Program-made: the position numbers and the translations under genes
Shown: positions 20,911 through 39,721 of the stretch, in pieces
Layout of the letters: every line of letters starts with the position of its first letter
Position numbering within the stretch: position 1 is the first letter of the stretch
DNA from: Rhodospirillales bacterium
GTDB taxonomy: Bacteria > Pseudomonadota > Alphaproteobacteria > BOG-932 > Roseiterribacteraceae
Assembly: GCA_003165335.1 (NCBI GenBank)
Contig: PLTD01000105.1
Span: 1-46,865, forward strand
Length of the DNA: 46,865 nucleotides
Direction of reading: 5' to 3'
Notes under the pieces: generated by a model
What the model saw: only the letters and a program-made list of their open reading frames with translations
Told to the model about the DNA's origin: nothing
Database searches by the model: none

Positions 20911-20942
20911 AGTTGAACAGGGAGGCTTCACGTCCTGGAGAC
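20905..20942 (-). repeat. attL: left copy of the direct repeat (sRNA 3' part)
   Basis: These 38 bases match 35752-35789 with only two differences. The first 30 are identical and include TTGAACAGGGAGGCTTCACG. They lie between arfB and the integrase. The neighbouring sRNA hairpin is disrupted here (ATGTCTCCAGGACGT instead of a perfect ACGTCT/AGACGT stem), so this is a 3' fragment, not a working gene. Repeat, adjacent integrase and arm sites together mark it as an attachment site. Confidence 0.8.
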
Positions 20943-21090: not shown

Positions 21091-21115
21091 AAAACGGCCC
21101 ACAGGCGGCCCACAG
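21091..21115 (+). repeat. Left arm-type integrase binding repeat
   Basis: Two copies of CGGCCCACA sit 12 bases apart after AAAA. The same 25-base unit recurs at 35684-35708 with three mismatches and the same orientation, just inside the other island end. This is what arm-type sites of a tyrosine integrase look like. A related single motif (ATAGGCCCATGG) lies near 21036-21047. Confidence 0.6.
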
Positions 21116-22830: not shown

Positions 22831-23598
22831 TCAGTACTGAACCCGCGCGGTGATCCCGCCATCGACAGTCAAATTGGTTCCGGTCGTGAAACTGGATTTT
22901 GTGCTGGCCAGAAACGCGACCGCGTTGGCGATCTCGGCAGGTCGTCCCATCCGTCCAAGTGGATTGGCTCTTAAAACATCGTCGAACATTTTCGGCTGGT
23001 CCCGTTCGATTTTGCCCCAGAAGCCGTCCTTTACGTAAATCGAACCGGGGCTGACCGCGTTAACCCGGATGCCTTTAGGGGCAAGCGCGTTGGCTAGGCT
23101 CTTGCTGTAATGAAGGAGCGCCGCCTTCAGCGAGCCATAAGCTTCGACGCCAAATGCCGCCGAAGTCTCGACCGCCGATACTGTTGCAATGATTACGATC
23201 GACGCCGCGGCTGACCTTTCGAGAAACGGCAGCGCACCGTTGACGGTATCGACCGTGCCCATGATGTCTACCGCGAAGGATTGCCGCCAGTCTTCGTCGC
23301 TTGCCGCCGGCGCCATAGCTGAAGCGTTCGGCACCAGTATGTCGAGGCCGCCCAACTCGGCCGCCGCCGCCGCGATCCAGGCTTTGAGAGCAGGTCCGTC
23401 GGCGATATTCACCGCTGCTCCGGTCGCCGTTACGCCTCTTGTTTTCAGTGCTGCAACGGTCTCGCGGACCTGTCCAGGGTCGCGGGCGCAAACGGCGATG
23501 GAGACGCCCTCATCGGCCAATTGTTCGACAATTGCGCGACCGATGCCCCGGGTGCCGCCCGTCACCAGCGCGCGCTTGCCGGCAAGTTCCAGATTCAT
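22831..23598 (-). CDS. Short-chain dehydrogenase/reductase (SDR)
   Basis: This is a classical SDR oxidoreductase of 255 residues. It has the cofactor loop TGGTRGIG (about 13-20), the PNAS variant of the usual NNAG (about 90-93), and the catalytic set Ser141, Tyr154, Lys158 (SAVETSAAFGVEAYGSLK) with the classic 13-residue Ser-Tyr spacing. The C-terminus (TGTNLTVDGGITARVQY) is typical. The cofactor (NAD or NADP) is not clear. An Arg at about 39 after CA would favour NADP. It is the last gene of the ABC-transporter operon on this strand, 23 bases after the permease, so it probably acts on the imported compound or a product of it. Confidence 0.9.
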   Translation of the reverse strand: MNLELAGKRALVTGGTRGIGRAIVEQLADEGVSIAVCARDPGQVRETVAALKTRGVTATGAAVNIADGPALKAWIAAAAAELGGLDILVPNASAMAPAASDEDWRQSFAVDIMGTVDTVNGALPFLERSAAASIVIIATVSAVETSAAFGVEAYGSLKAALLHYSKSLANALAPKGIRVNAVSPGSIYVKDGFWGKIERDQPKMFDDVLRANPLGRMGRPAEIANAVAFLASTKSSFTTGTNLTVDGGITARVQY

Positions 23599-23621
23599 GA
23601 TGCCTCATTTCCGTTCGCTGA

Positions 23622-24416
23622 TCAGATTCGCCCACCGCCCAGCAGTTTCGGCAGGTCGCCGATCAGCGCGACCGCGCTGAAGGCGAACACGCCCAACAGC
23701 ATGAACAGAACTGCGCCGACGCACATGGTCGGCTGGAAGCCCATGCGCAGATTATTGAACACTTTGATGGGCAGGGTCTCGACTTCAAAGCCGGCGACCA
23801 TATAGGCGATGATATATTCGTTGAGGCTGAGGATGAACACAAAGACCAGCCCGGAGACGACATAGGGTAACACGATCGGCCGCACGATGGTTCGCAGCAC
23901 GTCGCCTTCGCGCGCGCCCATGGTCCGGGCGGCCTCGACCAGTGCGAGATCGACCGAACGGAAACCCAGCCCGATGGTCGTCAGCGGCAGCGTGACAAAG
24001 ACCACCGCATGGCTGAGGATCGTGTCCTCGATGCGCCCGACATGGCCTAGCCAACTCCAGAACACCAGGAAGACAATCGAGAGCACGATCGACGGCAGCA
24101 GGAAGGAGATACGTGCGATGGATTCGAGAAGGAGAGCCATTCTCGAGCGATACTTCCAGGTGGCGTAGGCGATTGGAAAGGCGATGCTCACCGCCGCCAG
24201 CGAGGCGAGTGAGGCGACGATTACCGACAGGCTGAAGGCCGACATCCAAGCTGGATCGCTAAAGAAGGCGGCATACCAGGCGAGGCTGACATTCTGTGGC
24301 GGGAAGTTCATGCGCGGGGTACCGTTGAAGCTGACGCCGGCCACGATCACCAGCGGCGCCGCCATGAAAACGGCGAGGACCGTCAGGAACAGGAACTTTC
24401 CGATCGCCTTGGTCAT
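23622..24416 (-). CDS. ABC transporter permease, PotC type
   Basis: This inner-membrane subunit belongs to a polyamine/opine-type importer. From the ATG at 24416, which overlaps the stop of the other permease (ATGA), it has 264 residues and about six membrane helices. The EAA loop that docks on the ATPase is visible (VEAARTMGAREGDVLRTIVRPIVLP, around residue 165-190). The overlap and shared family show it forms a heterodimer with the upstream permease. Substrate cannot be read from the permease. Confidence 0.9.
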   Translation of the reverse strand: MTKAIGKFLFLTVLAVFMAAPLVIVAGVSFNGTPRMNFPPQNVSLAWYAAFFSDPAWMSAFSLSVIVASLASLAAVSIAFPIAYATWKYRSRMALLLESIARISFLLPSIVLSIVFLVFWSWLGHVGRIEDTILSHAVVFVTLPLTTIGLGFRSVDLALVEAARTMGAREGDVLRTIVRPIVLPYVVSGLVFVFILSLNEYIIAYMVAGFEVETLPIKVFNNLRMGFQPTMCVGAVLFMLLGVFAFSAVALIGDLPKLLGGGRI

Positions 24417-25264
24417 GGTCTCACCCGGCCGCGCGCGACGCGCGCGGTCAACAACGCCAGCAGGAGGGTCGCGGCCAGAAGAAAGATCGACATGGCCGAT
24501 GCGCGGGGAAGGTCGTGGCCAGCCAGCGCAGCGCTGCCGATGAGCACCGCCATAGGCCAATGTTGCGGTCTGCCGAGCACCAATGGAGGGACATAGGCGC
24601 CAACCGTCAGCACCATCGCCATCACGAAGGCGATCACCGCCGGCCTTTTGGTCAGCGGTACGACAACCGTTACGAACGCGCGGACCGGCGAAGCGCCGAG
24701 GGTTCGCGCTGCCTCGATAAGGTCATTGTTCAAGCGTGAGAGCACTGGAAACAGGGTCAGCACCGTAAAGGGAAGGACCAGATAGACCAGGCAGGCGATC
24801 ACAGCCCCGCTGCTCGGCGTCAGCGAGGCGGCCTCGTCCATAAGTCCGAGCGCAACAAAGATCTTCGACAGACCGATCCGCTTGGACAGCATGACCTGCC
24901 AGGAAAAGGCGATCAGCACGTCCGACAGGGAAAGGGTGGTCAGCAGGAATATCAGCCAGACCACCTGAATGCGGCGCCGCATGCGCGTGATCAGATAGGT
25001 CAGCGGAAACCCGAGCCCAAGGCTGAGCGCTGCCACGGCGAGCGCCAGCTCGACGGAATCGAGCAGTGCGCCCAGCAGTTCCGGTTCCGCCAAGGTGCCA
25101 TAGGCGCGAAGCGTGACACCGGGGCTCCACATTCCGCTCTGGTCGTGCGGCGCGATGCTAATGCGCAGGAGCAAAATGAAGGGTATTGTAACCAGCACGA
25201 GCAACGAAACCGTCGGCCAGGACAAGAGCAGGCCAAGCCGCAATCGTGTCGCTAGTCCTTTCAT
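24413..25264 (-). CDS. ABC transporter permease, PotB type
   Basis: This is the partner permease of the same importer, with 283 residues from the ATG at 25264. It starts with a basic stretch and a first membrane helix (LLLSWPTVSLLVLVTIPFILL), followed by a periplasmic loop and further helices. Its EAA loop reads IEAARTLGASPVRAFVTVVVPL. It follows the ATPase gene with a 2-base gap and overlaps the next permease, so all are co-translated. Open frame upstream of 25264 lies inside the ATPase gene and is not part of it. Confidence 0.9.
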   Translation of the reverse strand: MKGLATRLRLGLLLSWPTVSLLVLVTIPFILLLRISIAPHDQSGMWSPGVTLRAYGTLAEPELLGALLDSVELALAVAALSLGLGFPLTYLITRMRRRIQVVWLIFLLTTLSLSDVLIAFSWQVMLSKRIGLSKIFVALGLMDEAASLTPSSGAVIACLVYLVLPFTVLTLFPVLSRLNNDLIEAARTLGASPVRAFVTVVVPLTKRPAVIAFVMAMVLTVGAYVPPLVLGRPQHWPMAVLIGSAALAGHDLPRASAMSIFLLAATLLLALLTARVARGRVRP

Positions 25265-25266
25265 AC

Positions 25267-26325
25267 TCAATTCGCCAATATCGTGCAGGCGTCGATCGGT
25301 AGATGGACGGCGACTTGCTCGTCGACCGCAATGCCGGCCCATTCGGCGGGTGCGGCAATGCAGATCAATTCCCGCCCCTGATAGTCGATCCTCAGCTCGA
25401 TATGGTCGCCGACGTCCCGAACAAAGCCGACCCGACCATAGAGCGCATTGGCCGTATCCTCTCCATTGCGCACGATTCGGACGTTCTCCGGCCGGACTGA
25501 AATCGTCACGGCGTCGCCGTCCCGAAGATGGGCCGGCATGGCGCCAGTCTCCGTCACGCTATTGCCGAGCCGCACATGCCGCCGGTCCACCACGACGGCG
25601 TCGAGCAGGTTGCTCTGGCCGATGAAGGCGGCGACGAAGCGGTTGGCCGGTTTGCGATAGATCTCGGTCGGCGGGCCGATCTGTTGGACGACACCGTCGG
25701 CCATCACCACGATCGTATCGGCGATTGTCATCGCTTCACGCTGATCGTGGGTGACCAGAATCGTGGTGACCTGCAGCTTCTGCTGCAACTGACGAAGCTC
25801 GACCTGCATATGGTCGCGCAGCTTGGCGTCCAACGCCGACAGCGGTTCGTCCAGCAGAAACAGCATCGGTTCTTGCGCGAGCGCACGGGCAATCGCGACG
25901 CGCTGTCGCTGTCCGCCGGAAAGCTGGTCGATCGACCGGGGCCCGATGTCGGGCAGCTTGATCAGTTCCAGCAGTTCCCGGACGCGGGCGCGCCGGTCAG
26001 CCGGACCGATATTCCGCAGCTTGAGGCTATAGGCGATATTGTCCTCGACCGACAGGAACGGGAATAAGGCCAATGCCTGGAATACCATCGCGAAGTTGCG
26101 ACTATGTACCGGCGTTTTGGTGATGTCCTTTTCGTTCATGAGGATGCGGCCGGCCGACGGCGTTTCCAGCCCGGCGATCATGCGCATCAGCGTGGTCTTG
26201 CCGCAACCCGACGGCCCCAGGAAACAGACGAACTGTCCGCGCGGCACGGTCAGAGAGACGTCTTTTACGACCGTTTGGTTGCCATAGACCTTGCTGACGC
26301 CCTGTATCTCCAACCCGAACTTCAT
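25267..26325 (-). CDS. ABC transporter ATP-binding protein, PotA/TOBE type
   Basis: This ATPase powers the importer. From the ATG at 26325 it is 352 residues. Walker A (GPSGCGKTT, about 37-45), Q-loop (MVFQALALFP), signature LSGGQ (about 135-139), Walker B with catalytic Glu (LFLLDEPLSALD) and the switch His (VTHDQREAM) are all intact. The C-terminal third is the TOBE regulatory domain (VTISVRPENVRIV) typical of polyamine, sulfate and sugar importers. It lies between the binding-protein and permease genes in a tight operon. Confidence 0.93.
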   Translation of the reverse strand: MKFGLEIQGVSKVYGNQTVVKDVSLTVPRGQFVCFLGPSGCGKTTLMRMIAGLETPSAGRILMNEKDITKTPVHSRNFAMVFQALALFPFLSVEDNIAYSLKLRNIGPADRRARVRELLELIKLPDIGPRSIDQLSGGQRQRVAIARALAQEPMLFLLDEPLSALDAKLRDHMQVELRQLQQKLQVTTILVTHDQREAMTIADTIVVMADGVVQQIGPPTEIYRKPANRFVAAFIGQSNLLDAVVVDRRHVRLGNSVTETGAMPAHLRDGDAVTISVRPENVRIVRNGEDTANALYGRVGFVRDVGDHIELRIDYQGRELICIAAPAEWAGIAVDEQVAVHLPIDACTILAN

Positions 26326-26335
26326 CGGGGTCTCG

Positions 26336-27445
26336 TCAACTGGTGACCATCTTGATGAATTGGCGTTCCATGTAATCGGTATTTTTGAAACGGGCTTCCG
26401 TCGCTGCCGGAATCGACGGGCGGTCGGACGATACGGCGGCGAATTCCTGATCGGTAAGGTTAAGCTTGGCGCGATCGATGACGGGCGCGGAGCCGACATA
26501 GCGCGCGATCAATTGCTGAGCCTCGGGCGTACAACTGAAATTGATAAATTCCTGGGCCTCGTCAATCTTGGCCGAGGATGTGGGTTGGCACCAGAGATTG
26601 GTGCTTTCGACCGCGCCCTCCTTGGGGAAGATCGAGCGCACCGGTGTGCCGTTCTTGATCATGACCATGGCGGTGTCGTGCATATAGGTGCCACCGACGA
26701 CCTCGTCGTTGATCAGAGCCGTCTGCATCGTTCCTTCGTCCTGCCACCATAATTTCACGTTGCCTTTCAGCTCGGCGATCTTGGCAATGACCTGGTCGAT
26801 TCCTTCCGGGTTCATCAGTATGTCGATGCTGCCGAAGTGGACCTTGGCCGTGATCTCGAAGATCTGTGAGCTGCTTCCCGACAAGATGCCCCAGGCATTC
26901 GGGTGTTTGTCCCATAGGACCGTCCAGCTGTCCGGCAGAGGTTTGAGCTCTTCCGGGTTGACCACGAAAGTCATGAACCAGGACATCGCGGCGACATTGT
27001 CGAAGGCCGGGCCGGGTGTGAGAAACCTTGCGGAAAGCTGGGAGAAGTTCGGGATGCGACCGGGGTCGAAGCTGCGCCAAAGATTTTGCGCCCGGCCGCG
27101 CAGTACGTCGACCGCCGCCATGCAGCACACATCCATGGGCGGTGCGCCGGCCTTGTTCGCCTCGGCCAGCTGAAACAGAAACTGTGCGCCTTCCGGCTGC
27201 TCGATCGACTGGACATCGATACCGCTCGCCTTGGTAAAGGCGGGGTAGACATATTTCGCGAAACACTGTTCGAAATACCCACCGAAAGTGGAAACTTTCA
27301 GGCTGCGCGCCGCGCGCGCGGGACGGATAAAGGGCATTTGCAAAGCGGCTGTCGCCGCGACGATTCCCGCGCCGCGCAGGACGGCGCGGCGCGAGGTCCT
27401 GCCACCCGTCTCAGGTCGGGCGAGAATCGAGGATTTGTCCGTCAT
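26336..27445 (-). CDS. ABC transporter substrate-binding protein, PotD-like, Tat-exported
   Basis: This periplasmic binding protein captures the substrate for the adjacent permeases. The ATG at 27445 has GGAG 9 bases upstream. The N-terminus carries a twin-arginine signal (TSRRAVLRGAGIVAATAALQM), so it is exported folded. The mature part matches the spermidine/putrescine-binding family (STFGGYFEQCFAKYVYPAFTKASG ... AWGILSGSSS ... AQEFINFSCTPEAQQ). The family also takes opines, other amines and small organic acids, so a polyamine substrate is only one possibility. It is the first gene of the operon with ATPase, permeases and SDR. Confidence 0.9.
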   Translation of the reverse strand: MTDKSSILARPETGGRTSRRAVLRGAGIVAATAALQMPFIRPARAARSLKVSTFGGYFEQCFAKYVYPAFTKASGIDVQSIEQPEGAQFLFQLAEANKAGAPPMDVCCMAAVDVLRGRAQNLWRSFDPGRIPNFSQLSARFLTPGPAFDNVAAMSWFMTFVVNPEELKPLPDSWTVLWDKHPNAWGILSGSSSQIFEITAKVHFGSIDILMNPEGIDQVIAKIAELKGNVKLWWQDEGTMQTALINDEVVGGTYMHDTAMVMIKNGTPVRSIFPKEGAVESTNLWCQPTSSAKIDEAQEFINFSCTPEAQQLIARYVGSAPVIDRAKLNLTDQEFAAVSSDRPSIPAATEARFKNTDYMERQFIKMVTS

Positions 27446-27652
27446 TTCAAGCAACTCCAAAGCGACGGGTGGCCATCGGCCCAGACTGGCCGAACGTGCC
27501 TGAGGGCATGGGCGTTCTGACGAAATGCTGCGGTCGTTGCCCTTGGTATGCCAGCCAAGATTGGATGGATGGCGTCCGCATCGGCAATAACAAGCTCTGC
27601 AACATTAGTTATCCGATCGCGAAACTATCGGCATTCACACGCGAGCGCCGGT

Positions 27653-28642
27653 TCATAGGACGCCCGTTTCGCAAGCAACCTTGCTCAATAGTTTTGCATC
27701 GCCGCGGCTCCGCCTTTCCGACGAGATCTCCGGTTGCAGCACGTCCAGATGATCGAGCAGCGCCATGACGTGGGGCGAGGATGTGCCGTGTCGGGTGATG
27801 AGTTCGATATCGGTCGAAAAGCCGAAAACGTCAGGCAGGATATTGCGGAAGTTCTTCAGCCGCCAAAGCGATTCGACATAGTGATCGGGCAGGGTGCCAA
27901 GGAAACAGCCGGTGCTGATCAATGTCGCGACCGCCTCCATCGAATCGACCGAAGCGGTTTTGACGAGGGAGCCGTCTGATCTAAAGCGGTCGTAATCGTC
28001 CATGAACGAATATCCAGCATAGTCGTATTTGGAAATATCCTGAATATTGATCGAAGGCTTATCGTAGAGTGGATGCTCTTCCGAACAGTACATACTGCAG
28101 TGCTCTTTGTACAAGAACCGATAATCAAGCTGGTTTATGTGGCGCCTGCCTATGACCAGTCCCGCGTGCAGCGTTCCATCGAGGACGGATTGTTCGATAA
28201 TGTTCGATGTCGTCGTCATAATATTGTATTCGACGTAAGGATGTTTCTTTTTGTAGGTCTTCAATATCTCGGGGACCTGCAGGTTCTTATCGGTGATCAG
28301 CGTGTCGATGATGCCGATATTCAGTGCTCCGGTCAGGTCCGAATGGATGCTGCGGATATTGGCTTCGAAACGCTCCAGGTCTGCGATCAACTGCAGGCTC
28401 GATGAATAGACCTGCCGTCCCTGGTCGGTCAGAGAGAAACCGACGCGGCCTCGCCGGCATAGCCGGACGCCCAGGCGGGTTTCCAAATCTTTGATATAGC
28501 GACTGATCGAAGGCAGCCCGAGCTGAAGCTCCGACTCCGCGGCCGCGAAGCCTCCGCAGCGGGTAACCGCACAAAACACGCGGAGCAGGCGAATGTCGCC
28601 ATCGCTCATCTTGCCGTTAAATGTTCGTGGATTCAGTCTCAT
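27653..28642 (-). CDS. LysR-family transcriptional regulator of the island
   Basis: It has an N-terminal helix-turn-helix (IRLLRVFCAVTRCGGFAAAESELQLG, then SISRYIKDLETRLG) and a C-terminal effector domain (about 100-310) that should sense a small molecule. The ATG at 28642 gives 329 residues; an ATG at 28609 (MSDGDIRLLRVF) is an equally good start. It lies between the transporter operon, same strand, and the hydrolase operon, opposite strand, the usual place for a LysR activator of both. Its middle part is visibly richer in A/T codons (Asn, Lys, Ile, Tyr) than the neighbours, which hints at a different origin. Confidence 0.88.
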   Translation of the reverse strand: MRLNPRTFNGKMSDGDIRLLRVFCAVTRCGGFAAAESELQLGLPSISRYIKDLETRLGVRLCRRGRVGFSLTDQGRQVYSSSLQLIADLERFEANIRSIHSDLTGALNIGIIDTLITDKNLQVPEILKTYKKKHPYVEYNIMTTTSNIIEQSVLDGTLHAGLVIGRRHINQLDYRFLYKEHCSMYCSEEHPLYDKPSINIQDISKYDYAGYSFMDDYDRFRSDGSLVKTASVDSMEAVATLISTGCFLGTLPDHYVESLWRLKNFRNILPDVFGFSTDIELITRHGTSSPHVMALLDHLDVLQPEISSERRSRGDAKLLSKVACETGVL

Positions 28643-28809
28643 AGTTTCGATCCTCGGCAATCATCTTTGCGCAACTTGTCATTCTTGATGCATTCGATGG
28701 CGGTCATCCTGATGGCTGTAGCTGACGGAGCTGGCGCGCGTTACCCAAAAGCCTTGCAAAGCATGTGCCAACTGGTGACGGCGCCGTACCAAGTGACTGT
28801 GGAGTTGAG
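28643..28809. promoter_or_regulatory. Divergent control region between lysR and hydrolase genes
   Basis: This 167-base gap must hold promoters for both directions. TTGCAAAGCATGTGCCAA near 28755-28772 is a weak inverted repeat with the T-N11-A shape bound by LysR proteins, and is a candidate operator. No clear sigma-70 boxes stand out. Confidence 0.3.
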
Positions 28810-29451
28810 ATGACGGAACGAATGAACGCGAAACGGCCGCTTATCGTCGGAAAACCGGCACTGATCATGATCGATTTTCAGCGCGGTGGTGAGTATGTGG
28901 CTGGCCAGGAAAACGGCATCGCGCATATGGATAATTCTGCAGGCGAACGGCGAGCCCGCGCGCGCGGGCTGGTTACTGCCGCCCGCGCTGCCGGTATCCC
29001 CGTGATCTTCATCCAGGAGGTCCATCGCTCCGACCTCGTCGATTTCGGGCGTGAGTTGGACGGTGACGAAGACGTCCATTGCGTTGAAGGATTGAGATCG
29101 ACCGAGATTGCCGCGGAAGAGGTGGATTTCCGTCCCGGCGACTATTTCGTGCCGAAGCGCCGCTATTCTGCCTTCTATAGTACCGACCTCGAAATATTGC
29201 TGAAGGGACTCAAGGTGCAGACCTTGGTCCTGACGGGTGGTCTGACCGATGTCTGCGTTCACTACACCTTCGTCGATGGGCACCAGGGCGATTACTACTG
29301 CCGTGTGGTCGAAGATTGCGTCGGGGGGTCCAGTCGTGCGGCACACGATGCCTCGCTCAATGCGATGGAGTATCTGCAGGCCGGTGCGCGCCGGACGAGT
29401 AGCGAGATTCTAGCGGCTTTCGAGGCGTTCAAGCGCTCGCTGGCCGCCTGA
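28810..29451 (+). CDS. Isochorismatase-family cysteine hydrolase, copy 1
   Basis: The family cleaves C-N or ether bonds through a catalytic Asp-Lys-Cys triad and includes biuret, ureidoacrylate, N-carbamoylsarcosine and nicotinamide hydrolases. All three residues are present in this 213-residue protein: Asp22 (LIMIDFQRGG), Lys116 (VPKRRYSAF) and Cys149 (LTDVCVHYT). The residues before Cys (GGL) sit where the family's cis peptide lies. The ATG at 28810 follows GGAG. The HRSDLVDFGRELDGDE stretch recalls biuret-hydrolase-like enzymes. I infer an amide or ureide substrate, without naming it. A close paralogue is at 34410. Confidence 0.9.
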   Translation: MTERMNAKRPLIVGKPALIMIDFQRGGEYVAGQENGIAHMDNSAGERRARARGLVTAARAAGIPVIFIQEVHRSDLVDFGRELDGDEDVHCVEGLRSTEIAAEEVDFRPGDYFVPKRRYSAFYSTDLEILLKGLKVQTLVLTGGLTDVCVHYTFVDGHQGDYYCRVVEDCVGGSSRAAHDASLNAMEYLQAGARRTSSEILAAFEAFKRSLAA

Positions 29452-29467
29452 CGATCCCGGGGAGGGA

Positions 29468-29490
29468 GGCCGGGGGCGATGCTCCCGGCC
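29468..29490 (+). other. GC-rich hairpin between hydrolase genes
   Basis: GGCCGGG (29468-29474) pairs with CCCGGCC (29484-29490), with inner GC pairs possible. There is no T tract after it, so it probably stabilises or separates the two messages and does not end transcription. It lies just before the ribosome site of the metallo-beta-lactamase-fold gene. Confidence 0.5.
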
Positions 29491-29513
29491 GCTCAGAAGA
29501 GACGGAGACGAGA

Positions 29514-30284
29514 ATGGGACTGCAGATCGCGGATCGGTGGTTCGAATTTGAAACGCTGACCGACGGCATCATCCGAATCTGGGAGCCCTATGTCATCCGG
29601 GTCGCGCAATGCAATATCTGGCACGTGCGCGGTCGCGATCGCGATCTGCTGATCGATACCGGGATGGGTATCGCCAGCCTGCATGCCGCCGCCCGCCATT
29701 TGTTCGACAAGGCGCTTTCGGCGGTGGCGACACACACCCATTTCGATCATGTCGGCTCCTTACATGAATTCGAGGACCGCATTGCGCACCCGGCCGAAGC
29801 TGAGAATTTATCCGTTCCCTCGGCAAATTTCAGCATGTACAGCGCGGATCATTCGCCGCAGATCACGGCCTCGCTGGAACGCGCCGGCTATGAGATCGGC
29901 CCGACCTATATCACCGCCTTGCCCCGCGCCGATTTCAACATGACGGAGTTCACCTTTCCGGCTGCGCCGGCGACCCGGTTGGTCGATGAGGGGGATGTGA
30001 TCGATCTGGGCGACCGGGTGTTCGAGGTTTTCCACCTGCCGGGGCATTCGCCCGGCAGTATCGGCCTGTGGGAGAATGCGACGGGGATATTGTTCTCGGG
30101 CGATGCGATCTATGACGGCCCGCTGCTGGACGATATTCCCGGCAGCGACATTGCGGTTTATTGCGACACGATGACCCGACTAGCGCAGCTCCCCGCCCGG
30201 GTCGTTCACGCCGGACACGATCCCAGTTTCGACGGGCGTCGGCTCAAACAACTTGCCTGGGACTATCTCAAGCGTCGCGCTTAG
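29514..30284 (+). CDS. Metallo-beta-lactamase-fold hydrolase, cytosolic
   Basis: The 256-residue protein has the full metal site of the family: His74, His76, Asp78 and His79 (THTHFDHVG), His178 (LPGHSPGS), Asp197 (FSGDAIYDG) and His235 (HAGHDPSF). No signal peptide is seen. Such enzymes hydrolyse esters, lactones, thioesters or beta-lactam rings. The start is ATG 29514 after a GGAG-containing leader. It follows the isochorismatase gene by 62 bases and the GNAT gene follows 14 bases later, so the three form one operon. The substrate is unknown; a lactone or thioester intermediate of the island's pathway is a reasonable guess. Confidence 0.88.
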   Translation: MGLQIADRWFEFETLTDGIIRIWEPYVIRVAQCNIWHVRGRDRDLLIDTGMGIASLHAAARHLFDKALSAVATHTHFDHVGSLHEFEDRIAHPAEAENLSVPSANFSMYSADHSPQITASLERAGYEIGPTYITALPRADFNMTEFTFPAAPATRLVDEGDVIDLGDRVFEVFHLPGHSPGSIGLWENATGILFSGDAIYDGPLLDDIPGSDIAVYCDTMTRLAQLPARVVHAGHDPSFDGRRLKQLAWDYLKRRA

Positions 30285-30298
30285 TGGGGACCCGAGCC

Positions 30299-30748
30299 AT
30301 GGTACAGAGCCCGCCAGCTTATAGGATCGAGGCGACCGATAGACCGGATCCATCAATTCGCGATGTGCTGGCCGACGCGCTTCTTGCCTATAATGAGACC
30401 TGGCTCGGGCCGTCGGCCAGCCGTCCCCTTGCCCTGCTGATCCGCTCCCAGGACGGTGCCCAGGTTGTTGGCGGCCTCTGGGGGCGCACATCGTTTCGCT
30501 GGCTTTACGTAGAGCTGCTCTTTTTGCCGGAAGCGCTGCGTGGGCGGCATATCGGAAAGGAACTGCTTACCTTGGCGGAAACCGAGGCCAGGAAACGGGG
30601 TTGCCTCGGCTCTTGGCTCGATACCTTCAGTTCAAAAGCGCATGGGTTTTACGAGGCGCACGGCTACAGGCTCTTCGGCGGGATCGCCGACTACCCGCCC
30701 GGCCATTCGCGACGCTCGCTGATGAAGCGTTTCGAGGACCAGGGCTGA
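30299..30748 (+). CDS. GNAT-family N-acetyltransferase
   Basis: This is a 149-residue acetyltransferase of the GNAT fold. The acetyl-CoA loop is visible (LPEALRGRHIGKELLTLAETEA, about residues 82-103), followed by CLGSWLDTFSSKAHGFYEAHGYRLFGGI, the usual C-terminal strand-helix. The ATG at 30299 lies 14 bases after the previous stop, so it is the last gene of the hydrolase operon. A role in acetylating an amine from the pathway, or in self-protection, is possible. It ends 14 bases before the convergent exported metallohydrolase gene. Confidence 0.87.
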   Translation: MVQSPPAYRIEATDRPDPSIRDVLADALLAYNETWLGPSASRPLALLIRSQDGAQVVGGLWGRTSFRWLYVELLFLPEALRGRHIGKELLTLAETEARKRGCLGSWLDTFSSKAHGFYEAHGYRLFGGIADYPPGHSRRSLMKRFEDQG

Positions 30749-30762
30749 CTCTCTATCGGGGA

Positions 30763-31677
30763 TCACGGCAGCGGGTAGAAGATGAAATCCGCATGGACGT
30801 CGAGTTTGGGCATATCGCCCATATGGTCGAGCGAATTTTGCAGGTCGGTCAACCGTGAATAGGGCAGTTCCAGCACATGCTCTTTCGGGTGGCTGGCGGC
30901 ATGGATCGGATAATCGACGCGCGGGGTCGTGGTCATTTCGATATGCGTGCCCATCAGCCATGAAATCTTCAACGGCTTGGTAAAGGCGGCGGCCCGGTCG
31001 ATGCTGTCGCGAAAGCTATGGAATGCCTCCAGCTTGACGTAGAGCCGGCCTGCGTAGAGAGAGTCGCCCGATAGCAGCCAATGTGTCTTGGGATCGTAGA
31101 TCATGATCGCCGCCGCCTCGTGGCCGGGCGTAGGAATGATGTTCAGAACGCGGCCGCCCAGGTCGAACGACGCGATGTCGGTCGGCCAGTTCTTGATGTT
31201 GAAAAATGCGGCGACCTCGCCAGGCGCATGGCCGACGACGGTGACGTTGGGCGCGCCGGCGAACTCGCCATCGCCCGCGATATGGTCGCCATGGGAATGC
31301 GAATGCGCGACAACCAGGGAGATGGACGTGCGTCCCTTCTGCGCCAACCATTCGGCGATGATTTTGTCGATGGTCGGCCGGATCTTGAGGCCTCCTGCGC
31401 CGGTATCCTCGAGCAGGGCGCGGTCAGTCCCGAACAGCAGATAGAGAAACGGGGCTTCGGGATTGGTTTGGACCGATTGGCGAATGACGAATGTGTCGGC
31501 GTCATAGCGCTGCACCTGCATTTCCGGTTCAGGGCCTTTCGTCCCCGCGATCCATTGTTCCTTGAACACCGACTTGGCCGGGTCGGCCCTGACCGTGGCG
31601 CTCCACTGCGGCGTGAGCAGGATTGTGGCGGCGAACGCCATCCGCCATCCTGCCTCGCAAAAGCTCCGTCTGATCAT
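30763..31677 (-). CDS. Exported metallo-beta-lactamase-fold hydrolase
   Basis: From the ATG at 31677 the 304-residue product begins with a signal peptide (MAFAATILLTPQWSATVRA region), so it acts in the periplasm or outside. The metal motif is present as HSHSHGDH (His127, His129, Asp131, His132), then TPGHEAAAI, LSGDSLYAG and GTHIEMT. The sequence differs clearly from the cytosolic enzyme at 29514 and is nearer the subclass that looks like secreted B3-type enzymes. The TonB receptor gene lies 35 bases upstream on the same strand, so the two are co-transcribed. It probably treats the substrate as it enters. Confidence 0.87.
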   Translation of the reverse strand: MIRRSFCEAGWRMAFAATILLTPQWSATVRADPAKSVFKEQWIAGTKGPEPEMQVQRYDADTFVIRQSVQTNPEAPFLYLLFGTDRALLEDTGAGGLKIRPTIDKIIAEWLAQKGRTSISLVVAHSHSHGDHIAGDGEFAGAPNVTVVGHAPGEVAAFFNIKNWPTDIASFDLGGRVLNIIPTPGHEAAAIMIYDPKTHWLLSGDSLYAGRLYVKLEAFHSFRDSIDRAAAFTKPLKISWLMGTHIEMTTTPRVDYPIHAASHPKEHVLELPYSRLTDLQNSLDHMGDMPKLDVHADFIFYPLP

Positions 31678-31712
31678 CGATCGGTCTCCCCGGCTACCGT
31701 GCAAATCAGCCT

Positions 31713-34034
31713 TTAGAAGTGGGTGTTCGCCTCGACCCCGATAATGCGCGGGGTCGGGGTGTAGCCTTCGGCAACGTAATTATCCGATGGGCTCTGGATG
31801 ATCTTTTTTGTATCGAACAGATTCTTCGCAAACAAAGACACATCCCAGCTCTCGAAGGTCGCGCCGATACTCGCGCCGGCCAAATTGTATGTGGGTCGAT
31901 CATAATCCTGATTGGTTCGCACGAAGGTTCCGTGGCTGTTGCCGGTGAATTGCCAGTTCGCACGGATAAAGCCGGTGATGTCGCTCGTCAGATCCCGCTC
32001 GTAATCAGCAGTGAAATTGAGCGACCATTTGGGTGATCCTGGGACCGGGTCCCCTTTGTAGACGCCCAGACCCAGAACGTCTTGGGTGAAGGTGTCGTGA
32101 TTATATTGTCCTGAAGTTCCAAAAGTGAGCGAAGGGCCCACGCGCCACTGGATTTCGGTTTCCAACCCATAGCTCTCGGCTTGGCCGACATTCGCCGTGA
32201 AATCGAAGCCGCATGTCTTCAGCGGGATGTCGATTTGAATCTTACTCCACTCGATATCGTAGGCCGACGTATTTACTGAAAGCTGGTTGTCGAAGAATCG
32301 TCCTTTCGCGCCGACCTCATAATTCCAAAGCTTGTCCGGCTGGTAACCGGTCGGCGCGGTTTCGAGTCCGAACGCTGCGAGGTCGCCCGCGCATTGCGAC
32401 GCAGGAACGGGCGTATTGATGCCGCCCAGCCGGAACCCTTTTCCAGCCGTGGCATAGGTCGTGACCGTGTCGGACACATCGTAGGTCACAGAGAATTTCG
32501 GGGTCGGCGCGTAGGCTTTTGTAGTGCCGCTCGCAAAGGGCGTACTGGCGAAAAAGCCACCCGACACGGACGTCAGAGAGCTTCTGCCATAGAGATAGCG
32601 CAGGCCGGCGGTAAATTTTAGCTCTGGGGTCAGATTGTAAGAGAGTTCACCGAACGTCGCATATTCTCTGTCGTCCAAACGTGTTTGGAAGTCGTAGAAC
32701 AGATCGTTTGGAATCGTTGTCCCGAGCACGCTGGCGGCGCTTACTCCATAGGCCGATTGGAACGTCTGGTTGAACCCGGGAATATATTGAGACGAAGTGC
32801 CGAGGTTCTTGGAGTCGGAATAGTAAAGCCCAACGATCCATGTAAACGGATTGTCTCCATTGGGATCATAAGGCTTGGAAACAAGGCGGATTTCTTCCGT
32901 TGCCTGTCGCGTATTCAGTGAATTGAAGACTGGTCCAGGGAGAGCGGCGAGCTGATTGCCGTCCAGTTGACCGTTAACGCCTGTGGTTCCCATGCCGTCG
33001 ATGAAGCCGCCGACAAAGACGCTGTTGAAATAGGTGCCGTCGGTCGTGCGTGGAAAATGGCGAAACGCATAGCTTGAGACGGACGTCAGGTCTGCCCAAT
33101 CGAGGTCGTAATTAACCTTAATGCTGGGCACCGCGAGCATATCGGAGCCGCCTTCCTGAACCTGCTTGGTCGTAATGTAGTTTGGTGTCGCTAAATCGAC
33201 GAGGCCGGTATCGTTGATGACCGTCTTTTGTGCAAAGACCGCCGGCGTAATCGTCAACTCGGGGGTGACATCCCAGAGCAGGGATGCTTTGACGACATTG
33301 GCGCGGTCGCCGTTGATACCAGTGCGGTCGATCACCCCGGCCAAGGTGGCATGATCGACGAATCCGCTGTCCTGGGTGGTTTCGAAGCCGATGCGCAGCC
33401 CCATCTGGCCGGTCACCAGCGGGATATTGACGACTCCCTTGGCGACGTAGTTCAGTCCGCCGTGGTCGGTGCCGGAAAGCTCGCCGCCGGCAGCTCCTTC
33501 AAAGTCGTTGAGATTGACCGGGTTGCTGACGAACCTGATGGTCCCGCCCATCGAGCTTGCCCCATATAGAGTGCCCTGTGGACCGCGAAGGACCTCGCTT
33601 TGAGCAAGATCGAAAAGAAGCGGTTCCGATTGTCCCGAATAGAACGAATTATTTCGGATCGTTATCGGCGCGTCATCCAGATAGATGGCAACAGTGGACG
33701 TACCGGTCGTCGAGCTGATGCCGCGAATTTCGAGATTGCTCAGGCCCGGCGCTCCCAGGCTTGAAAAGGACAGATCCGGGATGGTTCGCGCCAGATCGGC
33801 GTAGCCTTCGATATGCTGCGCTTCAAGCTGCACGCCAGTGACCACCGAGATGCTCTCCGGAACCTTGCGCAGAGTCTCAGATCGCTTTTGGGCGGTGACC
33901 ACGATCTCCTCGATCCCGGCTGGCGGCTGCGCGTCCTGATCAGCGGGGATGGTTTGGGCATACGCGTGTGCCGGCAGAAGATATGTTGCGGCGCACATGA
34001 GTGAGACGGGCACTGCCAGACGTTTCGCCTTCAT
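31713..34034 (-). CDS. TonB-dependent outer-membrane receptor
   Basis: The 773-residue protein has a signal peptide (LAVPVSLMCAATYLLPAHAYA), a TonB box region (IEEIVVTAQKRSE, about 41-53), a plug domain (about 55-170) and a beta-barrel ending in a terminal Phe (GVEANTHF). It takes up large or scarce substrates using TonB energy. Classic siderophore context is absent: the neighbours are hydrolases and a polyamine-type importer, which suggests a carbon or nitrogen compound. The ATG at 34034 is preceded by GAGAGGA. It is first in a two-gene operon with the exported metallohydrolase. Confidence 0.93.
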   Translation of the reverse strand: MKAKRLAVPVSLMCAATYLLPAHAYAQTIPADQDAQPPAGIEEIVVTAQKRSETLRKVPESISVVTGVQLEAQHIEGYADLARTIPDLSFSSLGAPGLSNLEIRGISSTTGTSTVAIYLDDAPITIRNNSFYSGQSEPLLFDLAQSEVLRGPQGTLYGASSMGGTIRFVSNPVNLNDFEGAAGGELSGTDHGGLNYVAKGVVNIPLVTGQMGLRIGFETTQDSGFVDHATLAGVIDRTGINGDRANVVKASLLWDVTPELTITPAVFAQKTVINDTGLVDLATPNYITTKQVQEGGSDMLAVPSIKVNYDLDWADLTSVSSYAFRHFPRTTDGTYFNSVFVGGFIDGMGTTGVNGQLDGNQLAALPGPVFNSLNTRQATEEIRLVSKPYDPNGDNPFTWIVGLYYSDSKNLGTSSQYIPGFNQTFQSAYGVSAASVLGTTIPNDLFYDFQTRLDDREYATFGELSYNLTPELKFTAGLRYLYGRSSLTSVSGGFFASTPFASGTTKAYAPTPKFSVTYDVSDTVTTYATAGKGFRLGGINTPVPASQCAGDLAAFGLETAPTGYQPDKLWNYEVGAKGRFFDNQLSVNTSAYDIEWSKIQIDIPLKTCGFDFTANVGQAESYGLETEIQWRVGPSLTFGTSGQYNHDTFTQDVLGLGVYKGDPVPGSPKWSLNFTADYERDLTSDITGFIRANWQFTGNSHGTFVRTNQDYDRPTYNLAGASIGATFESWDVSLFAKNLFDTKKIIQSPSDNYVAEGYTPTPRIIGVEANTHF

Positions 34035-34409
34035 GATTTGGGTCCTCTCAAAACCCCAGAAACCGCCTGTTTCCGGGTCGATTCTATTGAGAGCCTAATC
34101 ACTGACTCGGGATATATGCATGACTGTATGAACAACTTAAGTTGCGTTGCAGCGAAAGTGTGTGATGCAAATTTATTGGCCGCCGGTGCTGATGGGGCGT
34201 GCGGGTAGGCAAATGTTCGGGATTTATGCGCTCAAACGCGGCCGAAAGAGCCCCTTGTGTCCTGCCCCGGGGCCAATTCTTCGAATAGAACGCAACTATT
34301 ATTGTCGAACCTGCCATTCGTAGGGTGACGGCGTTCCCGTATTAGGGGATTCGGAAATTGGACGTCGACAGCGGCTCGCGTCCTGTGCGCAACCACGGAG
34401 CGTCACTCT
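34035..34409. promoter_or_regulatory. Divergent promoter region of the TonB receptor and isochorismatase 2
   Basis: These 375 bases contain no gene. A perfect 12-bp palindrome, CAACTTAAGTTG, lies at 34133-34144, about 100 bases before the receptor gene and 265 before the isochorismatase. It is a candidate operator. The surrounding DNA is unusually A/T-rich for the window, as expected for a control region. Confidence 0.45.
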
Positions 34410-35003
34410 ATGCGTAAACTCATCGAAGGTAAGCCGGTCCTTATTGTTGTGGACATCCAAGGTTGTGGGCAGATGGAGAACCCGCCGGTGCCTCATATGA
34501 ATGACGGACGGGATATGCACGTGAACGCGGCCAAGCTGATTGCTGCGGCGCGGGCCGGCAATGTTCCCGTTGTCTTCATCCAGGAGGCGCACCGGCCCGA
34601 CCTTGTGGATTTTGGTCGCGAGCTTGACGGTGAAGAAACTGTCCACGCGCTGGAAACCGACCCCAGGACCGATATCTCGGACGATATCGGCTACCGTCCC
34701 GGAATTGACTATTTCGTTCGCAAGCGCCGCTATTCGGCCTTTTTTGGCACTGATCTTGAGGTATTGCTCAAGGGCCTCAAGGCGGAAACGCTGATCCTGA
34801 TTGGCGCGCTAACAGACGTTTGCGTGCATTATACGTATCTTGACGCCCATCAGCACGACTACTTCGCGCGTGTCGTCGAAGACTGCGTAGTTGGCTCGAC
34901 CCGTGCCGCCCACGATGCTTCGTTGAGAGCCATGGAATATCTGCAGACCGGCGCCCGTCGCACGACGACCGAAATCCTACTGGCGCTTGACTCGAATGAG
35001 TGA
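34410..35003 (+). CDS. Isochorismatase-family cysteine hydrolase, copy 2
   Basis: This is a 197-residue close paralogue of the enzyme at 28810; long stretches such as LVDFGRELDG, KRRYSAF, LTDVCVHYT and RAAHDAS are shared. The triad is intact: Asp15, Lys105, Cys138. It differs in the N-terminal third (the loop after the first Asp is shorter and reads GCGQMENPP), which lines the substrate pocket, so the two may act on different steps or related compounds. It stands alone, divergent from the TonB receptor operon. Confidence 0.9.
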   Translation: MRKLIEGKPVLIVVDIQGCGQMENPPVPHMNDGRDMHVNAAKLIAAARAGNVPVVFIQEAHRPDLVDFGRELDGEETVHALETDPRTDISDDIGYRPGIDYFVRKRRYSAFFGTDLEVLLKGLKAETLILIGALTDVCVHYTYLDAHQHDYFARVVEDCVVGSTRAAHDASLRAMEYLQTGARRTTTEILLALDSNE

Positions 35004-35683: not shown

Positions 35684-35708
35684 AAAACGGCCCACATACG
35701 GCCCATAG
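35684..35708 (+). repeat. Right arm-type integrase binding repeat
   Basis: Two CGGCCCAYA motifs 12 bases apart after AAAA repeat the unit at 21091-21115, with 22 of 25 bases identical in the same orientation. It lies about 45 bases inside the right attachment site. Confidence 0.6.
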
Positions 35709-35722: not shown

Positions 35723-35757
35723 AAAAAATGGCCGCTAACCCATTGGATTAGCGGCCA
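35723..35757 (-). terminator. Terminator of the intact sRNA
   Basis: Stem TGGCCGCTAA (35729-35738) with TTAGCGGCCA (35748-35757), 10 perfect pairs, followed by six T on the minus strand. It is the element-borne replacement for the terminator left behind at 20878-20910. Confidence 0.9.
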
Positions 35758-35789
35758 AGTTGAACAGGGAGGCTTCACGTCTGGGAGAC
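35752..35789 (-). repeat. attR: right copy of the direct repeat
   Basis: This matches 20905-20942 in 36 of 38 positions. Here the repeat continues into an undisturbed sRNA hairpin and upstream region, so this copy carries the gene's true 5' side. Confidence 0.8.
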
Positions 35790-35840
35790 GTCGGGCCCAA
35801 AGACCCATTCGCGAACCGGGGAAGGCTCGGGAAGAAGTGA

Positions 35841-35921
35841 TGCTGCAGCGCAACATCATGGAGCAATGTGATTGTTCCAGAAGGATAATTCCAGTCTGCG
35901 GCGATTAATGCTGCATTGCAG
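35841..35921 (-). promoter_or_regulatory. PhaR-like boxes upstream of the sRNA
   Basis: CTGCATTGCAG (35911-35921) fits the CTGC-N3-GCAG motif bound by PhaR, the regulator of polyhydroxyalkanoate granule genes. A second related motif, TGCTGCAGCGCA, lies at 35841-35852, about 35-45 bases before the estimated sRNA start. Both suggest the sRNA is tied to carbon storage. Confidence 0.45.
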
Positions 35922-35983: not shown

Positions 35984-37561
35984 CTAAATCGTTGCTTCGC
36001 TCGCCGCTTTGACGGTGCGAATTGGGGAAGCGGCGCACCAGTCTTGATTCGCAGCCATCATTCCCGCGAGGCTCAAAAAAGGCACGAGCTGAAGCAGATT
36101 GCGGGTTTCGGAACGCATGCCAAAGGCCAGCAAGGCCAGAATCTGAACGACTACGTACACTGCGAGACCGGCAACCATTGTACCCTGGCGCCGCACCAGT
36201 TGGACGGCCATGCCTAGGGCCACGAGCAATGTCAGAGGGATCAACAGCATGAAATAGCGATCCGCATAGTCCACCCACTGGGTGATATCGTTGATGTTCG
36301 CGGATATTTGCACGTGAAAATAGGCGTCGAGGCGACTAGTCGGGCCTTTGCCCACGTCGGGGAAAATCTCCCAGCCGATCTCGCGCTTGAGAAGCGATGC
36401 GCGCAAATATTCCGTCATGACCTGCCCGGCCAGGCCCCCCAGGATACCTGCGCCCAGCAACCGCCAATCCGGACGACGACGCGCGGCCCACGCGTCGATC
36501 AGCGCCTGACTTACCATCCACACGCCGATATATGCAGCGGTCTCGTGATTGAAATAGGCCACACTCATCAACGCCAGAAAGGCCCACCATGGCGCGCGGC
36601 GCACCACCAGAAGCAGGAAGACGGCGCCGGTCAAAAGTATGAAATAATCCCAGACATACAGCCACGGGCGGCTCATCATCAGGACATAAAGTGTCTGGAA
36701 CGCAAAAAGCGCCGCCCACCCTCCCTGCCTACCACTGATGGTACGTCCAGCATGGAACATCACAACACTGGCAAGGGCGATGACGGTAACCGCGATGATG
36801 ATATGGGCGACGGAAAAATTGACGCCTCCGAGATCGGTCAGGGCTTTGGCGAGCCAGGGCCCGAGCAGGCGCGATTGAAAATGACGCCAGTGCGGATAAC
36901 CATCCAGAACTCCCTGAGATGCTTGGACGGATCGCGCCAGATCTCGGTCGTAGAAGAATTCGACATGTCGCGATAGAGCCATCGACAGTGCAAATGATGA
37001 AGCCCAAACGCTGATTTCTTGCTTAACGCGCAGCCAAGTGATGCCAGGATGGCGCGCCATCAGCAGACCTCCTGCGACAATCGCAAGATCGCCTAGCCCA
37101 TTAAACCAAAGCCCGTAGTCGGCATTGGTGACGACGTTAACGTGAAGCAGGTTAACGAACTGACCGCTGTAAGAATAAATTACCGTCAGACAGACGCTGG
37201 TAAATCCGAAGGCAATTGCGACGACTGTCGACAGCAGGGAACCGTAGAGTCGGTAAAAGGCGACGGACACGATGCCTGCAGCCAACCCGGTCAGAATTAC
37301 GCCCGGAATATATTGAAAGACCATATTCCCGGACGTCACGCTGAGTTCGGGGGAGTAGAAGGCCGGCATGACTGTAGACGCCAGAATCATGAGCGCGCCT
37401 AAGCTCACAATGATCGCCGGCAATATATTAAACGGAAGCGCTCGCTCCTCTGCGTTCAAATCCAGTATTTTGTGGTCTGCAAAATATTTTCTGAAGATAT
37501 CTAGCGCTGCGTTGCTATTCGCCACCACGTGCCCCCATCCGAACTCTCGCAATGCCAACAT
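35984..37561 (-). CDS. Polytopic membrane protein of unknown function
   Basis: The 525-residue protein has about ten to twelve hydrophobic helices spread along its length, starting after a 45-residue cytosolic lead (the first helix is around LPAIIVSLGALMILASTVMPAF). Between helices lie RHVEFFYDRDLARS and a longer loop around residues 395-435 (EIGWEIFPDVGKGPTSRLDAY). The layout recalls GT-C-fold glycosyltransferases or polymerase-like membrane proteins, but I find no decisive motif. It is a core-side gene next to the sRNA, with no operon partner close by. The start is the ATG at 37561. Confidence 0.75.
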   Translation of the reverse strand: MLALREFGWGHVVANSNAALDIFRKYFADHKILDLNAEERALPFNILPAIIVSLGALMILASTVMPAFYSPELSVTSGNMVFQYIPGVILTGLAAGIVSVAFYRLYGSLLSTVVAIAFGFTSVCLTVIYSYSGQFVNLLHVNVVTNADYGLWFNGLGDLAIVAGGLLMARHPGITWLRVKQEISVWASSFALSMALSRHVEFFYDRDLARSVQASQGVLDGYPHWRHFQSRLLGPWLAKALTDLGGVNFSVAHIIIAVTVIALASVVMFHAGRTISGRQGGWAALFAFQTLYVLMMSRPWLYVWDYFILLTGAVFLLLVVRRAPWWAFLALMSVAYFNHETAAYIGVWMVSQALIDAWAARRRPDWRLLGAGILGGLAGQVMTEYLRASLLKREIGWEIFPDVGKGPTSRLDAYFHVQISANINDITQWVDYADRYFMLLIPLTLLVALGMAVQLVRRQGTMVAGLAVYVVVQILALLAFGMRSETRNLLQLVPFLSLAGMMAANQDWCAASPIRTVKAASEATI

Positions 37562-37763: not shown

Positions 37764-38651
37764 TTAAAAATGCGACTGTCCAACCTTTTTAATCAGGTAG
37801 TCACGCAGAACCGCAATGCGCTTTGAGTGGCGCAATTCTTCGGCGTACACGAAGAACGATTCGACCTCTGGTCCCTCCAATTCGGGCAACACCCGCTCGA
37901 TATTGGGATGGTCGGCGACGACGAAATCAGGCAATGCGGCTATGCCCAGGCCGCTGGAGACGGCCTGAAATATCCCGAACATATTGTTGATCAGCAGGAC
38001 CTTCGGCGACTCGAAACCGATCCCCGCCACCTCTAGCAGCCAATTGGCAGTGCTGAACGGCAGGCTCATATTCGGCGGAAAGCCGATGATCGAATGGTTG
38101 TGCAGCGATGCCATCGTGTCGGGCCGGCCATGCCGCTCCAGATACTCGTGCGAAGCATAAATCTTCACTCGGATCGTCGCCAAATGCCGTTGAATCAAGT
38201 CGGGCTGCCGTGGCGGCATCATCCGAATCGCGACATCTGCCTCACGCATGGCGAGGTCGAGCTCGCGGTCGTCGATCAGCAGCGTCATCTGAATGTCCGG
38301 ATATAACTCCAGGAATTCGCCAAGGCGCGGGGTCAGCCATTTGACGCCGAAAGCGAAAGTGGTCGTGACTTTGAGAGGTCCGCGAGGCCTCAGCTTGCTT
38401 TCGGTCAACATCGCTTCGGTCATCGCCAGTTTGGCGAATACGTCGCGGGCGGTGCTGTGCAGAACTTCTCCCTGTTCGGTGAGGATCAGTCCCCGGGCAT
38501 GGCGATGAAACAGCGTAACCTTAAGGCTATCCTCGAGCGCGCTGATCTGACGGCTGATCGCGGACTGACTAAGATTCAGCGCATCTCCGGCGTGGGTGAA
38601 GCTTCCCGCCTCTGCGACCGCATAGAAAATCCTTAGCTTGTCCCAATCCAT
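37764..38651 (-). CDS. LysR-family transcriptional regulator next to trxB
   Basis: From the ATG at 38651 it starts MDWDKLRIFYAVAEAGSFTHA, the standard LysR winged-helix opening, and is 295 residues. The effector domain follows from about residue 90 (RGPLKVTTTFAFGVKWLTPRLGEFLELYPDIQM). It lies 75 bases after trxB on the same strand, an arrangement repeated in many alphaproteobacteria. The regulon is not clear from sequence. Confidence 0.9.
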   Translation of the reverse strand: MDWDKLRIFYAVAEAGSFTHAGDALNLSQSAISRQISALEDSLKVTLFHRHARGLILTEQGEVLHSTARDVFAKLAMTEAMLTESKLRPRGPLKVTTTFAFGVKWLTPRLGEFLELYPDIQMTLLIDDRELDLAMREADVAIRMMPPRQPDLIQRHLATIRVKIYASHEYLERHGRPDTMASLHNHSIIGFPPNMSLPFSTANWLLEVAGIGFESPKVLLINNMFGIFQAVSSGLGIAALPDFVVADHPNIERVLPELEGPEVESFFVYAEELRHSKRIAVLRDYLIKKVGQSHF

Positions 38652-38725
38652 ACCGATGTCCTGTCCGGCCGCAGCCACAGCCTGTAGCTATGTTTCATCC
38701 TGAGAAGTTGTGCCTCATACATGCT

Positions 38726-39721
38726 CTATTCGGCGGCTTCCGCCTTTTGATACGATGTTGCTGCACCTCCCGCCTCATGGTGCGCCAAGAAACGGTCTGC
38801 TTCCAACGCCGCCATGCAGCCCATCCCTGCCGCAGTAATGGCTTGACGAAATACCTTGTCCTTTACGTCACCGGCGGCGAACACGCCGGGGCGGCTGGTT
38901 TCGGTCGAATCAGGCGCTGTCACAATATAACCTTCAGCGTCCATGTCGAGTTGGCCGCGGAAAAGGCTTGTCGCTGGATCATGGCCGATCGCGACAAAAA
39001 ACCCGTGAACAGTCAGCGACCGCTCGCTGCCGCTCTCGACATGCCGCAATTTAACCCCAGTAACCGACTTATGGCCCCCTTCTTCGGTGCCGATGACCTC
39101 TGCAATTTCATGATTCCAGATTACTTTGACTTTTGGATTCCGGAACAGTCGATCCTGCATGATCCTCTCGGCGCGCAGCGAGTCACGCCGATGGATCAAA
39201 GTAACTTTGGATGCGAAATTCGTCAGAAACAGGGCTTCCTCAACGGCCGTATTGCCGCCCCCGACAATGGCTACTTCCTTGCCGCGATAGAAAAAGCCGT
39301 CGCAAGTTGCGCAGGCGGAAACGCCATAACCTTGGAAATGCTGTTCGCTGGTCAGACCCAACCAGCGCGCCTGAGCTCCCGTGGCTATGACAAGCGTGTC
39401 GCCGGTATAGGTGACACCCGAGTCGCCCTCGGCACGAAACGGACGCTCACTAAGATCAACCCTCGTGATCAGGTCGTGGGTCAGCGCGACGCCGACATGC
39501 TTGGCCTGCGCCTCCATTTGCTCCATCAGCCAGGGTCCCTGGATCGGGTCTGCAAAGCCGGGATAATTCTCGACGTCAGTGGTGATCATCAACTGGCCGC
39601 CCGGTTGCAGACCCAATATCTGTCGCGGCGCCAGATTGGCGCGCGCAGCATAGATTCCCGCCGTATATCCGGCAGGACCCGAACCGATGATTAAAACTTT
39701 CGAATGCAGCGAATCAGCCAT
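38726..39721 (-). CDS. trxB: Thioredoxin reductase
   Basis: TrxB reduces thioredoxin with NADPH through FAD and a redox disulphide, in the cytosol. The 331 residues show the FAD loop IGSGPAGYTAGIYAARAN (about 12-29), the active-site pair Cys137-Ala-Thr-Cys140 (SACATCDGFFY), the NADPH site GGGNTAVEEALFL and the C-terminal FAD motif VFAAGDVKDKVFRQAITAAGMGCMAA. Length and motifs are exactly those of the low-molecular-weight bacterial enzyme. The start is the ATG at 39721. Confidence 0.96.
   Translation of the reverse strand: MADSLHSKVLIIGSGPAGYTAGIYAARANLAPRQILGLQPGGQLMITTDVENYPGFADPIQGPWLMEQMEAQAKHVGVALTHDLITRVDLSERPFRAEGDSGVTYTGDTLVIATGAQARWLGLTSEQHFQGYGVSACATCDGFFYRGKEVAIVGGGNTAVEEALFLTNFASKVTLIHRRDSLRAERIMQDRLFRNPKVKVIWNHEIAEVIGTEEGGHKSVTGVKLRHVESGSERSLTVHGFFVAIGHDPATSLFRGQLDMDAEGYIVTAPDSTETSRPGVFAAGDVKDKVFRQAITAAGMGCMAALEADRFLAHHEAGGAATSYQKAEAAE

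Follow-up and report, generated by a model that had tools for sequence, protein, structure and literature searches.

A conserved small-RNA gene beside a vtlR/lsrB-type regulator gene as the probable integration site of a tyrosine-integrase island that exchanges its terminator

The contig analysed here (PLTD01000105.1 of assembly GCA_003165335.1, a Rhodospirillales bacterium; all 46,865 nucleotides, hereafter the window) carries two minus-strand copies of the 3′ part of a small regulatory RNA (sRNA) gene, separated by an island of ~14.8 kb. We present evidence that this island was, very probably, integrated site-specifically by a tyrosine integrase inside the conserved sRNA gene, next to a LysR-type gene of the vtlR/lsrB kind, exchanging the 3′ end and terminator of the sRNA. 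The transcribable, host-proximal copy (35723–35868, minus strand) forms one attachment junction and the distal copy of the 3′ part (20878–20942, minus strand), recognized by sequence match and with a weak hairpin, forms the other. Segments 20878–20942 and 35723–35789 are 84% identical over 67 nt, and both island ends carry the same 30-bp exact core, GACGTGAAGCCTCCCTGTTCAACTTGGCCG (right copy 35752–35781, left copy 20905–20934, both minus strand), a match far beyond chance within 47 kb. The core marks the presumed crossover region, lying over the block shared by all 11 pairs described below. There are only two matches to the CUCCC-type sRNA 3′ part in the genome of the window, with no third. 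No tRNA or tmRNA gene is present as a target within the window, and scanning all of it with Rfam at curated thresholds gave no match.

The minus-strand RNA 35723–35821 comprises a hairpin (ACGUCU-CCC-AGACGU), a linker (GAAGCCUCCCUGUUCAACUU), a 13-bp terminator stem and a U6 run, with a fold z-score of −5.3 (equally stable shuffles, 0/200). A preliminary description of this DNA had proposed such a perfect hairpin, CUCCC-rich single strand and terminator for the intact copy, and these are borne out; its estimate of ~80 nt for the sRNA needs correction. The right copy extends upstream into additional hairpins, conserved and with some covariation among relatives, and the 147-nt form has a z-score of −5.4. 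The conserved structured RNA measures closer to 140 than to 80 nt, so any 80-nt form would need to be a processed 3′ piece. The left copy, first described as devoid of the 5′ hairpin, in fact retains a variant of it (AUGUCUCCAGGACGU) that folds at −3.8 kcal/mol, versus −6.1 kcal/mol for the right copy; nothing of the region further upstream (two to three additional hairpins and a putative promoter) is present in it. The two copies also terminate differently, with GGCCGCTAATCCAATGGGTTAGCGGCC on the right and GGCCGGAGCCTTCGGGTTTCCGGCC on the left. The proximal copy is accordingly read as a host 5′ part (upstream hairpins, anti-Shine–Dalgarno (anti-SD) hairpin and linker) followed by an element-derived terminator stem and U-run (35723–35758, minus strand), and the distal copy as an element-derived 5′ fragment, the weak hairpin, joined to the displaced host terminator.

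An intact tyrosine integrase gene (21133–22341, plus strand; 402 aa), oriented into the island, is separated from the left copy by 0.13 kb. The protein matches PF00589 (4e-14) and PF13356 (7e-15), retaining the invariant columns, with R244, H333–R336, H359 and Y368 present. Inside both island ends lie paired direct repeats of about ACGGCCCACA with an 11-bp period (ACGGCCCACA/GCGGCCCACA at 21094–21114 and ACGGCCCACA/ACGGCCCATA at 35687–35707, both plus strand), the latter next to the element-supplied terminator. They are placed as arm-type integrase sites are, on the element side of each junction, and we treat them as putative arm-type repeats. An integrase with its catalytic residues at a junction, direct-repeat cores and arm-type repeats, as expected of a tyrosine-integrase island, are all found here.

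The arrangement recurs. Same-strand sRNA pairs with an integrase on one contig are present in the window and in eight other genomes (G348, G319, G108, G425, G436, G438, G444 and G461), in which the copies lie 10–45 kb apart and the integrase is antisense to the sRNA, adjoining the distal copy; G453 and G391 have the same layout across contig breaks. An integrase accompanies 9 of 12 same-strand pairs versus 0 of 89 single-copy loci, the latter being those, out of 114 (integrase 0/114), for which the contig extends at least 9 kb downstream. The Fisher P value of 1e-10 overstates independence, because a single pattern served to find the genomes, some of which are related to one another. A 7-mer direct repeat with an 11–12-bp period sits just past the terminator in 12/12 element-bearing proximal copies versus 8/111 single copies. 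These observations, along with the integrase at the left copy and the empty-site relatives below, uphold the original proposal of an sRNA gene used as an integration site.

Three close pairs have no integrase. That of G278 (2.5 kb) has the look of an element whose integrase has been lost, because the arm-type repeat is present; those of G302 (2.2 kb apart) and G404 (0.5 kb) are, judging by their sequences, probable duplications. Such tandem copies lend some colour to the idea that the copies in the window are likewise paralogous, independently functioning sRNAs born of a tandem duplication, with the island between them by coincidence. True duplicates share their upstream region, as both G302 copies do in full, whereas in the window and the integrase-bearing pairs similarity ends 5–16 nt upstream of GAAG; moreover, integrases always adjoin the distal copy and never a single locus (0 of 89). 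We consider duplication highly unlikely. The tandem loci themselves (L206 in G404 and L101 in G302), with whole sRNA and upstream region repeated at close range, recall the tandem abcR1/abcR2 genes.

Other arrangements were seen at this site. In G444 (L201/L202, G444:C1:240000-263000), three same-strand cores lie 1 kb and 18 kb apart, which suggests successive insertions at one site. The metagenome-assembled genome EAC21 (G391; L215 and L234/L235) has two near-identical integrases on two contigs, each with an sRNA core 0.23 kb away. Seven viral contigs contain the core, and two of them (L220 and L221, from IMG/VR) have the sRNA close to one end and arm-like repeats following its terminator, possibly representing prophage ends at the sRNA site. 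Apart from a possible case in L222, no integrase lies within 600 bp of the core in these seven.

Empty sites in congeneric genomes reveal what happens to the terminator. The G355 terminator (GGCCGGACCCGCAAGGTGTCCGGCC) is that of the distal copy in its congener G278, whose proximal copy has a different stem; likewise, terminator and flank at the empty site of G427 both match those of the distal copy in the congeneric G425, whose proximal copy has GCCGGCTAATCAACAGGTTAGCCGGC, unlike G427. The native terminator has therefore been displaced and that of the element put in its place, as the preliminary description had supposed in giving the element its own terminator stem and hence a changed sRNA 3′ sequence. 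Proximal and distal stems are unlike in 7/11 pairs, and every pair terminator carries a U-run and folds with −18 kcal/mol or a lower energy (random 48-mers of the same DNA reach terminator-like folds of −15 kcal/mol in 33/20,000 draws). The block common to all pairs amounts to GACGTGAAGCCTCCCTGTT and a few further bases, placing the crossover, by sequence comparison, in the anti-SD linker or its immediate edge. For the window, the comparison available is one of colinearity, with G004 matching window 10–16 kb and 37–46 kb around a single sRNA. G002 was considered as an empty site and ruled out: an arm-type repeat of its own follows the terminator, and the G002 contig ends 179 bp further on.

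A scan of named genomes, made with an alignment of site-linked integrases, yielded 80 integrase loci, 10 of them adjoining the core, in hosts that include Azospirillum endophyticum, Azospirillum sp. B506 and Paramagnetospirillum caucaseum. An initial FastTree analysis had implied at least six independent integrase lineages; this was dropped, as most of them group together under a better model, which does not reject a single clade. Under that model, the window integrase and ten others at the sRNA site form an 11-row group (SH-aLRT 93), a single clade of all 14 sRNA-site integrases has an approximately unbiased (AU) test P of 0.71, and none of the 65 other integrases in the tree lies at the sRNA.

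The sRNA itself is widespread. Its core pattern, ACGTNAARCCTCCCTGTT, occurs in 108/385 alphaproteobacterial genomes (reversed-pattern control, 0), and in 34/43 and 73/82 genomes of two orders inspected more closely; the conservation in relatives on which its status as a gene had been made to depend is thus found across the class. This bears on the notion that the island brought the direct repeats with it as a mobile terminator-like or REP-like sequence, with no sRNA gene involved. The two copies do have only their 3′ part in common, as that notion would have it. The right copy and its upstream hairpins, by contrast, are found class-wide at a constant position next to the LysR gene, with some covariation, in island-free genomes as well, making the repeat explanation barely credible.

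The sRNA usually lies just downstream of this LysR-type gene, represented in the window at 37764–38678 (minus strand); in relatives, the interval is ~150–350 nt on the same strand. The closest solved structure to the encoded regulator is 9HH1, LsrB of Agrobacterium (PMC11975290). Upstream of it is a pyridine nucleotide-disulphide oxidoreductase gene (thioredoxin-reductase-like; 38726–39721, minus strand), reproducing the Agrobacterium gene order trxB-vtlR-abcR (PMC7486931), though in the window a 525-aa gene without a Pfam match (35984–37561, minus strand) separates the LysR gene from the sRNA. Nothing of this size intervenes in G002, G003 or G004.

A covariance search did not sustain the initial suhB/MmgR label (RF00519, alpha-r8; 24.4 bits in the window, under the gathering score of 41 bits), and synteny points instead to the position that AbcR takes in rhizobia, beside vtlR/lsrB. 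SorX (RF02784) is the best Rfam model but is likewise sub-threshold (25.2 bits in the window and at most 43.2 bits in relatives, under 46.6 bits), and SorY scores 16.2 bits versus a curated 111. The RNA resembles SorX, SorY and suhB in its hairpin, CCUCCCUGUU linker and terminator, and differs from them in falling short of their curated scores and in position, SorX sitting after an OmpR-type gene. With AbcR1/AbcR2 (alpha-r15) it shares the locus order of thioredoxin-reductase gene, LysR gene and sRNA. AbcR1/2 carry anti-SD motifs in the hairpin loop and in the linker (PMC8844928), and the window sRNA has both, a CUCCC in the loop and another in the linker ahead of the terminator. The ar15 (AbcR) model RF02345, however, has no match in the window's genome (G000) at E ≤ 1. 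The sRNA is therefore placed in none of these families; we call it, from sequence and position, the vtlR-linked CUCCC sRNA at the AbcR position.

Its nature as an independent gene deserves scrutiny. It could instead be a 3′ untranslated region (3′-UTR) product of the LysR mRNA or, here, of the mRNA of the inserted 525-aa gene (whose product we call a membrane protein in this context), much as SorX derives from its upstream mRNA. The best Rfam model being SorX, albeit at a sub-cut-off 25 bits, and the short same-strand distance from lysR in relatives speak for this. An inverted repeat, ATGC-N7-GCAT, of the LysR-type T-N11-A kind, speaks against it: lying 128–160 nt upstream of the core in 12/16 relatives (0.75% of shuffles), it suggests that the sRNA has its own LysR-controlled promoter. 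The AbcR1 promoter is LysR-controlled (PMC8844928). The repeat, a possible LysR-type binding site, is seen in L025, L096, L098, L099 and others; among the 16 relatives' upstream regions compared, the published VtlR box GCAT-N3-TG-N3-T occurs in none, and an intact ATGC-N7-GCAT is missing from the window and from G002. A 3′-UTR origin is possible, if doubtful, and concerns the nature of the target; it is compatible with the integration mechanism.

Several points weigh against integration into a functional sRNA gene by one dedicated integrase group. The sRNA is known here from sequence alone, and the first 1.6 kb upstream of it in the window holds a gene absent there in relatives, making its promoter context unusual. 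No empty site is available from the window's own genus, where G002 seems to bear another element. The integrase group is moderately supported, and the free tree places the sRNA-site integrases of G348, G425 and G444 outside this group. The 11–12-bp-period repeat alone is not a specific mark, given the 8/111 single copies that have it.

Taken with the junctions, integrase, repeats and recurrence, the terminator exchange nonetheless leads us to regard site-specific integration as very probable. We picture it as follows. The integrase would recombine element and host within the single-stranded anti-SD linker, the stretch that separates the terminator from the 5′ hairpin nearest to it. Past its crossover point the element bears its own terminator hairpin and U-run, such that linking these to the host 5′ part yields a complete sRNA whose 3′ end has been exchanged, and the host terminator is moved to the far end, joined to a short element-borne 5′ fragment. 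Selection most likely maintains a functional terminator on the element, because, we propose, loss of the sRNA would cost the host. The sRNA would be expressed and, like AbcR, would act by pairing of its CUCCC motifs with ribosome-binding sites, and the element may still be able to excise. A further step, to our minds improbable, is that element terminators, by changing the presumed Hfq-binding 3′ end of the RNA, affect how stable a global anti-SD sRNA is or what output it has, with integration serving as a reversible switch on the host transporter regulon.

The island cargo (22831–35003) is of transport and catabolic type: an SDR oxidoreductase, an ABC transporter, a LysR regulator, isochorismatases, two metallo-β-lactamase-fold hydrolases and a TonB receptor. 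The island open reading frames scanned include no gene for phage or conjugation functions. The transporter, with a TOBE_2 domain and a periplasmic binding protein, occupies 23622–27460 (minus strand). Genes of the ABC-transporter and periplasmic-binding-protein class are often regulated by AbcR-type sRNAs.

Across Alphaproteobacteria, the conserved sRNA at the AbcR position would offer integrative elements a standing insertion site, one overlooked by tools limited to tRNA and tmRNA genes; named hosts include Azospirillum, Paramagnetospirillum and marine lineages. The natural terminator swaps amount to a set of 3′-end variants of one sRNA, altered in sequence and kept in structure, which makes it possible to test whether an element leaves an sRNA as it was or retunes it. 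Together with their 24-bp site, the integrases could also be put to use for integrating DNA in the hosts concerned. A prior report of the vtlR-linked sRNA as an integration site was not found in the open-access literature, within which three things are, as far as we know, new: this sRNA as a target, a group of integrases dedicated to it and the demonstration that the terminator is exchanged.

The closest parallels are islands in tRNA and tmRNA genes, also made by tyrosine integrases, in which the crossover falls within a structured RNA gene, the element restores the 3′ part, a displaced fragment is left at the far end and the integrase adjoins a junction; here the target is a regulatory sRNA, and what is restored is the terminator structure, mostly not its sequence. 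In the dusA-specific system, one integrase family is likewise reported to be tied to one conserved host gene (PMC4482086), which in that case is protein-coding. Prophages of Escherichia and Salmonella also use sRNA genes as integration sites, accounting for 17% of S. enterica prophage sites in the figure quoted from Bobay et al. 2013 (cited in PMC5502288); the system described here differs in its alphaproteobacterial vtlR-linked sRNA, its dedicated integrase group and a terminator swap traceable in empty-site relatives.
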